Shown: positions 21,972 through 25,506 of the stretch, in pieces
Layout of the letters: each line of letters starts with the position of its first letter
Numbering within the stretch: position 1 is the first letter of the stretch
Source: Candidatus Fusobacterium pullicola
GTDB lineage: Bacteria; Fusobacteriota; Fusobacteriia; Fusobacteriales; Fusobacteriaceae
Assembly (NCBI GenBank): GCA_018883725.1
Contig: JAHLFN010000016.1
Location: 1 to 64,000 of the forward strand
Direction of reading: 5' to 3'
Length of the DNA: 64,000 nt
Notes under the pieces: model-generated
Told to the model about the DNA's origin: nothing
Seen by the model: the letters and a program-made list of their open reading frames with translations, nothing else
Databases searched by the model: none
Position numbers and translations under genes: made by a program

Positions 21972-22000
21972 TTGAAATATAGCTTAGTTAGTGGTAAAAT
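21972..22000 (+). promoter_or_regulatory. Promoter of the BCCP-like/accC run
   Basis: TTGAAA (21972-21977) and TAAAAT (21995-22000) are separated by exactly 17 nt; the next gene starts 24 nt later with TAAGGAGG between. Confidence 0.75.
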
Positions 22001-22023: not shown

Positions 22024-22449
22024 ATGAAAGGTGATATAAATACTATTGAAGAGTTAATGAAAATTCTTCAAGAAAAAAACTTGACTGAGATATCATATGA
22101 AACATCTGAAATAAAAATAAACATAAAAGGTTCGTTACAACCAGAGAAAAAACAAGTAGCTCCAAAGAAAGCTGAAGCTGTAAAAGAGGAAAAAAAGAAG
22201 GAAGTAGCAAATTGTAAAGATGTAGTTTCAGAGCATATAGGAAGATATACTTATGTAAAAAAAGATGGAACTCCAATAATAGAAGTAGGACAAGAGATAA
22301 AGGCTGGACAAGAGCTAGGAAGTGTAATAGCTGTAGGAGTAGCTTTACCAGTAGTTGCTAAGTTTTCAGGAAAAATAGAAGAGATATATATAGAAAATGG
22401 TAAGCCAGTAGATTATGGAAGACCATTAATAAAAGTAAAGATTTCATAA
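22024..22449 (+). CDS. Biotin carboxyl carrier protein-like, biotin lysine absent
   Basis: A 141-residue homologue of AccB, the biotin carrier of acetyl-CoA carboxylase: N-terminal helix 'INTIEELMKILQEKNLTEI', a Lys/Ala/Glu/Pro-type linker (about 40-62) and a biotinyl/lipoyl fold at 70-141. The fold aligns without gaps to ordinary BCCP ('EVGQEIKAGQELGSVI' ... 'FSGKIEEIYIENGKPVDYG'), but the EAMKM hairpin that carries biotin reads IAVGV (102-106), with Gly105 in place of the biotinylated lysine. It therefore cannot carry biotin in the known way. The start at 22024 is set by TAAGGAGG; an earlier frame start lacks a site. accC follows after 31 nt, in the order seen in Firmicutes, so a link to AccC is likely but its nature is unknown. 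Confidence 0.85.
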   Translation: MKGDINTIEELMKILQEKNLTEISYETSEIKINIKGSLQPEKKQVAPKKAEAVKEEKKKEVANCKDVVSEHIGRYTYVKKDGTPIIEVGQEIKAGQELGSVIAVGVALPVVAKFSGKIEEIYIENGKPVDYGRPLIKVKIS

Positions 22450-22480: not shown

Positions 22481-23827
22481 ATGTTTAAAAAAATACTTAT
22501 TGCAAATAGAGGAGAGATAGCTGTAAGAGTAATCAGAGCAGCTAAGGAATTAGGAATAAAAACAGTTGCTGTATACTCTGAAGCAGATAAAGAGAGCTTA
22601 CATGTAAGATTAGCTGATGAAGCTGTATGTATAGGAGGAGTATCAAGTACAGAATCATACTTAAAAGTACCTAATATAATAGCTGCAGCTGAGATAACAG
22701 GAGCAGATGCAATTCACCCAGGATATGGATTTTTATCAGAGAATGCTAAATTTGCTTCAATATGTGAGGAGCACAATATTACTTTCATAGGACCTAGACC
22801 AGAGTGTATCACAAAGATGGGAGACAAAGCTACAGCAAGAGCAACAGCTATAGCTAATAATGTACCACTAACAAATGGAACTGGAATAGTAAGAAGTATA
22901 TCAGAAGCTAAAAAAGAGGTAAATGAGAGAATAACATATCCAGTAATGATCAAAGCCACTGCTGGTGGTGGAGGAAAGGGTATGAGAATAGCTAGAAATG
23001 ATGAGGAATTAGAACTTAACATAGTAGCAGCTCAAACTGAAGCTGGAGCAGCTTTTGGAAACCCAGATGTATATATAGAGAAATTTGTAGAAAATCCTAG
23101 ACATATAGAGGTTCAAGTTTTAGGAGATAAACATGGAAATGTTATCTATTTAGGAGAGAGAGATTGCTCTATTCAAAGAAGACATCAAAAACTTATAGAG
23201 GAAGCACCATCATTCTCTTTACCTTTTGGAGTTAGAAAAGCTATGGGAGAGGCAGCAGTAACACTAGCTAAGGCTATAAATTATGACTCAGCTGGGACTT
23301 TAGAGTTTTTAGTGGATAAGGATAATAAATTCTATTTTATGGAAATGAATACAAGAGTTCAGGTAGAACATACTGTAACTGAGATGGTAACAGGATTAGA
23401 CATTATAAAACTACAAATTCAAATAGCTTATGGAGCAAAATTAAATATAACTCAAGATGATATTCAACTTTTTGGACATGCTATTGAGTGTAGAATAAAT
23501 GCAGAGGATCCAAATAATAACTTCTTACCTTCACCAGGTGTATTGACAAAATATATAGTTCCTGGAGGAAATGGAGTTAGAGTTGACTCTCACTCATATC
23601 AAGGGTATGAAATCAGTCCATACTATGATTCTATGATAGGAAAGCTTATAACTTTTGGAATCAATAGAGAGGAAGCTATAGCTAAGATGAAAAGAGCTTT
23701 AAGTGAGTATATAATTGAGGGAATAGATACAACTATACCTTTCCACTTAGAGGTTTTAAATAATGAGCTTTATTTAGCTGGAAAAACTTCAACAAATTTT
23801 ATTGAAGAAAATTTTTCAAAAAAATAA
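22481..23827 (+). CDS. accC: Acetyl-CoA carboxylase, biotin carboxylase subunit
   Basis: ATP-grasp enzyme that carboxylates biotin on BCCP, the first half of acetyl-CoA carboxylase. Full length at 448 residues with N-terminal '[22 protein letters not shown]', the Gly-rich lid '[14 protein letters not shown]', '[20 protein letters not shown]' and the catalytic '[18 protein letters not shown]' all intact. The enzyme looks fully active, in contrast to the lysine-less carrier encoded just upstream. ATG with 'caggaggaaaata' upstream. accA and accD are not in the window. Confidence 0.95.
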
Positions 23828-23900
23828 TTTTATAAATAGTAGTTTTTTTTGAAAAAATTAGGTATAATATATAGTAGAAGATTACACGGAGGTGTTACAA

Positions 23901-24278
23901 ATGAGCGAATTAGGAAATATAAGAATATCTGATGATGTAGTAAAAACAATAGCAGCTAAGGCAGCTTCAGATGTAGAAGGTGTTTATAAATTAGCTGGTG
24001 GTGTAGCTGATGAAGTTAGCAAAATTTTAGGAAAGAAAAGACCTACAAATGGGGTAAAGGTAGAAGTAGGAGAAAAAGAGTGTAGCATTGAAATATTTAT
24101 CGTTGTAGAATATGGATACCTTATCTCTGAGGTTGCTCATGATGTACAAAAATCAGTTTTAAAAGCTGTATCTGAATTGAGTGGGCTAAAAGTAGTAGAA
24201 GTAAATGTGTATGTTCAAGATGTAAAAATTAGAGCTGAAGAGACTTCTGAAGAGGAAGAGGAAGGTTTAGAAGCGTAA
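23901..24278 (+). CDS. Asp23/Gls24 family protein (YqhY-like)
   Basis: A 125-residue Asp23/Gls24 protein. The family core is seen in 'GNIRISDDVVKTIAAKAASDVEGVYKLAG' (read in parts), 'EVGEKECSIEIFIVVEYGY' and 'VVEVNVYVQDVKI', followed by an acidic tail of mainly Glu. ATG 23901 has CGGAGGTG upstream; an in-frame GTG at 23892 lies inside that site and is unlikely. In Firmicutes the homologue YqhY sits directly after accBC and affects acetyl-CoA carboxylase activity; the same order holds here. The following amaP gene suggests membrane anchoring of this protein. Confidence 0.88.
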   Translation: MSELGNIRISDDVVKTIAAKAASDVEGVYKLAGGVADEVSKILGKKRPTNGVKVEVGEKECSIEIFIVVEYGYLISEVAHDVQKSVLKAVSELSGLKVVEVNVYVQDVKIRAEETSEEEEEGLEA

Positions 24279-24284
24279 CTCCAT

Positions 24285-24306
24285 AGAGGTGTTGAAAGGC
24301 ACCTCT
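24285..24306 (+). terminator. Intercistronic hairpin, weak terminator
   Basis: AGAGGTG (24285-24291) and CACCTCT (24300-24306) form a 7-bp stem with an 8-nt loop, followed by the imperfect tract AATCTTTTATT. It may lower expression of the downstream amaP-nusB genes relative to the Asp23 gene or stabilise the upstream message. Confidence 0.5.
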
Positions 24307-24331
24307 AATCTTTTATTATAGGTGGTATTTT

Positions 24332-24856
24332 ATGATTAAAAAAATAATTTTCTTTTTTGCATGGTTAGGTATATTTTTATTATCAATAACGGGGATTGTA
24401 TATGTGACTATACCAACATATATTGTGCAGTTTAATACTTATATAGGAACATTGAGCTATGATCTAGTAGTTTTTATTATATCTGTTATTTATTTTGTTA
24501 TATCTATATTAAAATTTTTATCTCTATTTGAAAGAACGAAGGATTATGAGATAAAAACAGAGGATGGAATAGTTTATATTTCTTCTGCTTCTGTAACAAG
24601 TTTTATAAGAGAGCTTTTATCTAAAGATAAAGAGATTTCAAATATAAGAGTAGAAACTTCTAAAAAAGGAAGAAAATTCAATATAAGAGTGAGACTTGAT
24701 ATGTTATCTAATGGAAATATATCTGGAAAATCATCTTCAATTCAAAATGAGATAAAAAGTAAATTAGCTGATAAAATGGGACTAGAGGTAGGGGCTATTG
24801 AGGTAAAAATCTCTAAATTAGCTGTAAAATCTACTGAAAACCATATAGATGAATAG
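24332..24856 (+). CDS. amaP: Alkaline shock response membrane anchor protein AmaP
   Basis: A 174-residue protein with two N-terminal membrane helices (about 4-28 and 43-67) and a cytoplasmic Asp23-like domain containing 'EDGIVYISSASVTSFIRELLSKD'. This is the AmaP layout, known in Staphylococcus to tether Asp23 to the membrane. It follows the Asp23 gene and precedes a DUF2273 gene, the usual trio. ATG with 'taggtgg' upstream. Confidence 0.85.
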   Translation: MIKKIIFFFAWLGIFLLSITGIVYVTIPTYIVQFNTYIGTLSYDLVVFIISVIYFVISILKFLSLFERTKDYEIKTEDGIVYISSASVTSFIRELLSKDKEISNIRVETSKKGRKFNIRVRLDMLSNGNISGKSSSIQNEIKSKLADKMGLEVGAIEVKISKLAVKSTENHIDE

Positions 24857-24867
24857 GAGAGAGATAT

Positions 24868-25089
24868 ATGTTAGATGAAATTATAGCAAATCTTATTTTA
24901 AATAGAAAAAGATATCTTTATGCTTTTACAGGGTTTATATTAGCACTTCTATTAGTAACAGTAGGAATATTTGCAACAGTTTTTATAATATTAGTTACAA
25001 TTTTAGGTTACTGTTTAGGAAGTCCTGTTTTTGTTAAAAAAGTAAAAAAAATTAAAAATATATTGTCTGAAAAATTAAATGAAGAATAG
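24868..25089 (+). CDS. DUF2273 small membrane protein
   Basis: A 73-residue protein with one long or two short hydrophobic segments (about 15-50, 'YAFTGFILALLLVTVGIFATVFIILVTILGYCLG', read in parts) and a basic tail. Size, composition and place next to amaP and Asp23 match DUF2273, a part of the alkaline-shock/Asp23 cluster. Function unknown. ATG with 'aggagagag' upstream, 11 nt after amaP. Confidence 0.7.
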   Translation: MLDEIIANLILNRKRYLYAFTGFILALLLVTVGIFATVFIILVTILGYCLGSPVFVKKVKKIKNILSEKLNEE

Positions 25090-25101: not shown

Positions 25102-25506
25102 ATGAGTAGAAGAGTAGCAAGAGAAGAACTATTTAAATTAGTTTTTGAAAGTGAATTAAAAGAGGAGAGTACAAAAGAGGTATTAGATAACTACCTTAAA
25201 AGAGATGAAGTTCTAACTAATGAAAATGAGTTAGCATTTATAAAAAAATACATGACTGGAATGGCAGAAAATAATGATAGAATATTAGAAACTATCAATA
25301 ATAACATCACAGGATGGAGCTTTGAAAGAATAGGAAATGTTGAAAAGGCACTATTAAAATGTTCTGTATATGAGCTTTTATGTGAAACTACTCCATATGA
25401 GATAGTTGTTAATGAGGTAGTAGAGTTAGCAAAACTATATGGAGATGAAAAAACTTCTGAATTTGTAAATGGAGTATTAGCTAAGATAATAAACAACAAA
25501 AAGTAG
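25102..25506 (+). CDS. nusB: Transcription antitermination factor NusB
   Basis: A 134-residue all-helical RNA-binding protein of rRNA antitermination, partner of S10 (NusE). Recognised by 'SRRVAREELFKLVFESEL' at the N-terminus with the conserved Arg/Ala/Phe pattern, 'WSFERIGNVEKALLKCSVYELL' and the C-terminal 'VVNEVVELAKLYGDEKTSEFVNGVLAKI' (read in parts). Typical length. ATG with 'aggaaaggaaaata' upstream, 12 nt after the DUF2273 gene; it ends the accC-nusB run. Confidence 0.93.
   Translation: MSRRVAREELFKLVFESELKEESTKEVLDNYLKRDEVLTNENELAFIKKYMTGMAENNDRILETINNNITGWSFERIGNVEKALLKCSVYELLCETTPYEIVVNEVVELAKLYGDEKTSEFVNGVLAKIINNKK

Follow-up and report, generated by a model that had tools for sequence, protein, structure and literature searches.

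Acetyl-CoA carboxylase (ACC), an antibacterial target, is the enzyme by which carbon becomes committed to fatty acids. In the window analyzed here, a stretch of 64,000 nucleotides from Candidatus Fusobacterium pullicola, the gene directly upstream of accC encodes a protein that resembles the biotin carrier AccB (BCCP) but has glycine at the position of the biotinyl lysine. We asked what such a protein could do beside biotin carboxylase. The gene is designated accB2, its product AccB2, and the canonical carrier AccB1; the features of the locus are listed in Table 1.

Table 1. Features of the accB2-accC locus (coordinates refer to the window)
Feature	Position	Strand	Evidence
Promoter-like site TTGAAA-17-TAAAAT, TG before second hexamer	21972..22000	+	Consensus scan
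accB2, lysine-less BCCP paralogue, 141 aa	22024..22449	+	ORF with RBS, profile matches, phylum-wide orthologues
N-terminal domain of AccB2, residues 1-36	22024..22131	+	AF2 secondary structure, low confidence
Biotinyl-type domain of AccB2, residues ~67-141	22222..22446	+	AF2 pLDDT ~95, Foldseek
Codon GGA, Gly105, biotinyl-lysine position	22336..22338	+	Invariant in 80/80 orthologues
accC, biotin carboxylase, the genome's only accC	22481..23827	+	TIGR00514 720 bits, cut-off 626.5
Asp23-family gene, position of YqhY	23892..24278	+	PF03780 E 2.9e-32; syntenic across the phylum
amaP-like membrane anchor, Asp23 family	24332..24856	+	NF033218 102.9 bits, cut-off 55
DUF2273 small membrane protein	24868..25089	+	PF10031 E 1.7e-9
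nusB-like gene, end of the conserved block	25102..25506	+	Named by position and sequence resemblance alone

Sequence and fold of AccB2

The accB2 gene is preceded by a good match to a ribosome-binding site (aaggagga). Residues 102-106 of its product are I-A-V-G-V, and the hairpin to which they belong reads IAVGVALPVVA in the window, where Lys, Ser, Thr, and Cys are absent and no other side chain is reactive. A profile of the AccB2 family was aligned to E. coli BCCP (4hr7 chain B; E 6e-17, profile positions 2-137 to chain positions 21-176). The alignment was ungapped through the hairpin and placed the glycine on the biotinyl lysine, confirming an earlier sequence-only reading in which the fold aligned to BCCP without a gap and Gly105 stood for lysine. 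AccB2 scored 34.3 bits against Pfam Biotin_lipoyl, above the cut-off of 22.1, and 48.9 bits against the BCCP equivalog TIGR00531, below the cut-off of 115.2. Its identity to AccB1 of the same genome was 32%.

The biotinyl-domain fold of BCCP was recovered both in the AF2 model, where strands 97-103 and 106-111 form the hairpin (pLDDT ~95), and by Foldseek searches with that model, which returned E. coli BCCP 1bdo (TMt 0.88, rmsd 1.0 Å) and the BC-BCCP complex 4hr7_G (TMt 0.89). The N-terminal domain was modeled at low confidence as a helix (5-17) and a beta-hairpin (22-27/30-35; pLDDT ~60), and the full-length match to 4hr7 together with conserved columns (E22 in 77 and K31 in 75 of 81 AccB2) identified it as the domain by which BCCP associates with biotin carboxylase. 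By analogy with a described BCCP (PMC11077971), this part may be the element linked to oligomerization with biotin carboxylase.

The same reading held that everything around the glycine is conserved, and this did not stand. The other biotinylation residues, E-A-M-K-[LM]-M-N-E and P-M-V-G, are also gone, and many members have a shorter thumb. The thumb segment between two glycines has 16 residues in all 37 AccB1 and in E. coli, as against 15 in 43 AccB2 and 9-12 in 38; in these 38 of 81, a large part of the functional thumb is lost. The fold is still kept in a divergent member that lacks the thumb. According to PMC11926652, which cites Cronan 2001, E. coli BCCP cannot function without the thumb. 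Taken as a whole, AccB2 shares with canonical AccB (E. coli AccB and AccB1) the domain order, the N-terminal helix and hairpin, a flexible linker, the biotinyl fold, and the site upstream of accC, whereas the biotinyl lysine, E-A-M-K-M-x-N-E, P-M-V-G, a 16-residue thumb, and a score above the TIGR00531 cut-off are all missing.

Conservation and gene order in Fusobacteriota

We collected 81 distinct AccB2 sequences from Fusobacteriota, 80 of which reach the hairpin. The biotinyl-lysine column held Gly in 80/80 of these orthologues and Lys in 37/37 distinct canonical AccB from the same searches. Because BCCP is defined by the biotinyl lysine in the E-A-M-K-M hairpin, AccB2 fails the defining test of a BCCP. 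The orthologues come from every Fusobacteriota family in which accC was found. Invariant residues in a 34-sequence alignment were limited to G73, G105, and G116, so the replacement glycine is among the most conserved residues of AccB2, and no reactive residue was invariant at the hairpin in the family alignment. Glycine may suit the tight geometry of the beta-turn once lysine is no longer needed, which is a plausible reason for its conservation.

Neither of the two objections raised in advance, a sequencing error in the hairpin and EAMKM at this locus in relatives, was borne out: the protein of a second genome of the same species was 99% identical and kept the glycine, and EAMKM was seen at the accB2 locus in none of the related genomes read, all of which have Gly. 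The dN/dS values of close AccB2 pairs were ~0.09-0.27, comparable to those of AccB1, with distant pairs being nearly saturated and giving higher values. These values point to purifying selection and confirm the suggestion that accB2 is not a decayed copy. One AccB2 (genome G027; L020, G027:C1:266748-267157) lacks a single base within a poly-A run of the linker, which is probably a homopolymer sequencing error because everything downstream is intact.

An accC above the cut-off was present in 81 of 98 Fusobacteriota genomes, and the same 81 had AccB2. In 80 of them accB2 lies directly upstream of accC with a gap of 13-129 bp (median 35.5; 31 bp in the window), and in the sole non-adjacent case it is on another contig of a fragmented assembly. 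No AccB2 was found in well-assembled accC-less Fusobacteriota genomes. An AccB2 fragment lies at a contig end of a 71% complete genome (G024), in which accC was not found. Among 27 loci with longer flanks, every family examined showed the order dnaE-accB2-accC-asp23-amaP-DUF2273-nusB, and a member was absent only where a contig ended or where a divergent locus left it below detection; the accB2 gene has thus kept its place before accC and the Asp23/YqhY gene throughout the phylum, as proposed for the window. This is the position of accB in the accBC-yqhY cluster of B. subtilis, a cluster reported to be conserved in Fusobacteria in the available part of PMC5437119, where no mention of lysine loss in fusobacterial accB was found.

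The promoter-like site lies 23 bp upstream of accB2 and is among the top matches in the scanned region, where the matches overall equaled the shuffled expectation and were not above chance. If the site is real, the transcript would have accB2 as its first gene. A terminator-like stem (window 24284-24307; 10 pairs, 4 GC) follows the Asp23 gene and precedes amaP; it could split an accB2-accC-asp23 transcript from the rest.

The window's genome has a canonical AccB1 (CIIEAMKLMNE) on contig C19, adjoining folD; the second BCCP with EAMKM for which a search of the same genome had been suggested is thus present, in the form EAMKLM. The genome also has one accC, accD, and one biotin protein ligase, as well as the biotinyl subunit of a decarboxylase on contig C58. 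By manual count, AccB1 was found in 79 of the 81 accC-bearing genomes; the two genomes without it are assemblies ~82% complete.

Proposed role of AccB2 and its alternatives

The strict linkage to accC, the presence of AccB1, and the retained N-terminal part together indicate a non-catalytic subunit that would assemble with AccC and AccB1. A precedent is found in plants. The BADC (biotin attachment domain-containing) proteins of the plastid heteromeric ACC, called unique to plants (PMC11926652, 2025), are BCCP paralogues without the AMKL biotinylation motif that occur alongside canonical BCCP. The same combination was found here, AccB2 being a BCCP paralogue without the biotinylation motif in an organism that has both AccB1 and AccC. 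The reported identity of BADC to BCCP is 25-30% (PMC11926652), against the 32% between AccB2 and AccB1. AccB2 differs from BADC in being bacterial and in standing first in the accC gene cluster. The resemblance is one of anatomy, and an independent origin is the default reading.

Most probably, AccB2 belongs to the AccC-AccB subcomplex as a subunit without catalytic function and acts in the manner of plant BADC. AccB2 would descend from BCCP, the biotinyl lysine having been lost before the sampled families diverged, and would be made together with AccC. It may bind AccC and AccB1 via its N-terminal helix and beta-hairpin and fill carrier positions while unable to carry biotin, and it could in this way aid the assembly or stability of AccC-AccB1 and set the number of biotinylated arms, hence the activity. 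That AccB2 is unbiotinylated is deduced from the missing lysine; its membership of the complex and its effect on ACC activity we infer. A structural or regulatory subunit of AccC was one of two roles offered by the sequence-only reading, and it is the one best supported by the present comparison; the other, a holder of a ligand other than biotin, is disfavored by the lack of a reactive side chain.

Structural work on related complexes bears on this proposal in both directions. In Chloroflexus BC1, four BCCP N-terminal beta-hairpins interlock into an eight-stranded barrel, which connects two BC dimers and increases BC activity (PMC11077971). In contrast, in the crystal complex of E. coli BC-BCCP the contacts are described as made by the biotinyl cores and not by the N-terminal hairpins (PMC11077971), which counts against hairpin assembly. 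A mixed AccB1/AccB2 assembly is also not assured because the two proteins are only 32% identical in the window's genome. A wider scheme is put forward as tentative, and we hold it to be somewhat doubtful: ACC of Fusobacteriota might have five subunits (AccA, AccD, AccC, AccB1, and an obligatory AccB2), mixed hairpin assemblies might join AccC dimers as an independent counterpart of BADC, and Asp23/AmaP might tie the complex to the membrane.

BADC has been described either as an assembly aid or as an inhibitor (PMC11926652, PMC7712654), and the same choice arises for AccB2. As an inhibitor, it would compete with AccB1 for AccC, throttle malonyl-CoA synthesis, and be released when lipid synthesis is favored. 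The same anatomy fits this model, which originated with plant BADC (as PMC11926652 and PMC7712654 report), and the downstream gene is of the Asp23/YqhY type, linked to ACC restraint in B. subtilis (PMC5437119). However, a pure inhibitor would be expected to be lost in at least some lineages, sharing a gene cluster with its target is a poor arrangement for a brake, and PMC11926652 argues that its structural data disfavor pure inhibition by BADC. Because no accC-bearing genome was found without AccB2 (0/81), an assembly aid is favored over a pure inhibitor, and we consider the latter unlikely.

AccB2 might instead take no part in catalysis or carrier assembly and serve, for instance, to dock AccC to Asp23/AmaP at the membrane. 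Such a role would be in keeping with the presence of asp23, amaP, and DUF2273 in the conserved gene block, with the assignment of AmaP to a membrane-anchor family, and with the docking of plant ACC to the envelope by other small proteins (PMC7712654). However, the asp23/accC linkage is independent of AccB2 because it also occurs in bacteria with ordinary AccB (PMC5437119), and docking seems improbable as the role of AccB2.

Another covalent ligand at the hairpin was also considered. Biotinyl and lipoyl domains have a common fold, and AccB2 gave weak profile matches to GcvH and lipoyl families. Glycine, however, offers no side chain for modification, and Lys, Ser, Thr, and Cys are absent from the hairpin in the window and none of them is invariant in the family; an alternative covalent cofactor was therefore rejected as very improbable. 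Finally, a decaying duplicate (pseudogene) or a sequencing error, to which only the one-base deletion in G027 could lend support, was rejected as having next to no likelihood, given the 80/80 Gly, the purifying selection, the fixed synteny, and the full-length fold.

If AccB2 is the proposed non-catalytic subunit, bacteria would appear to have their own version of a carrier-like non-catalytic subunit so far known from plant ACC, and BCCP-like subunits of this kind would have arisen at least twice. AccB2 would also provide a small bacterial system in which to settle the question of assembly versus inhibition, still disputed for BADC. An automatic "BCCP" label on the accC-linked gene of Fusobacteriota would name the wrong carrier. 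Some bacterial acyl-CoA carboxylases likewise have non-catalytic subunits. To our knowledge, these have no homology with BCCP. They are cited as assembly "glue" in PMC11926652, and their likeness to AccB2 would be that of a non-catalytic assembly subunit in a biotin-dependent carboxylase.

Ancestry and other carriers

In a maximum-likelihood tree with carriers from Bacillota, Actinomycetota, and E. coli, AccB2 formed one clade (100/100) and Fusobacteriota AccB1 another (100/98), with two rows outside the latter, which are a probable contaminant and a transferred second copy. Because AccB1 and AccB2 form separate clades, they must have split before the sampled families diversified; the tree, with 165 columns and long branches, did not indicate the source carrier of AccB2. 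All 109 AccB-like matches from loci of Bacillota, Actinomycetota, and E. coli had [AVS]MK and matched the AccB1 profile more closely than the AccB2 profile, and Lys was present in all of the best 30 matches from 399 Bacillota genomes. No lysine-less copy was seen among the examined Bacillota and Actinomycetota sequences. AccB2 is thus likely, though not proven, to be restricted to Fusobacteriota, other phyla having hardly been sampled. Our literature search found no published description of a lysine-less bacterial AccB, and such a carrier is unmentioned in the accessible part of PMC3199775, whose carboxylase tables include Fusobacteria.

Several genomes depart from the usual carrier set. Three genomes of one genus (g4; G016, G017, and G018) have accD above the cut-off, and accC, AccB2, and AccB1 were not detected in them; the weak carrier match in G017 corresponds to the biotinyl subunit of a decarboxylase (L139 3061-3480). 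In two genomes of two other families (G062, L125 2442-4271; G063, L126), AccB1 is fused to the C-terminus of a carboxyltransferase resembling pyruvate carboxylase B/oxaloacetate decarboxylase alpha (609 aa in G062). No further lysine-bearing AccB was found beside the fusion in either genome, and a single carrier may be shared by both enzymes. Many Bacillota genomes contain a fusion of this kind (L251-L280).

In family f4, genomes G070 (L129, L130), G071, G076, and G078 carry an additional accB/accC set next to genes resembling 5-oxoprolinase (pxp). In the tree, the AccB of this set, in which the lysine is present, falls with Bacillota sequences, suggesting horizontal transfer. A stretch of another genome (L131, G043:C2:1443500-1451000) has a high-GC look, unlike the rest of that genome, and its own accBC. 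It is probably assembly contamination and, by impression only, we take it to be Planctomycetes-like.
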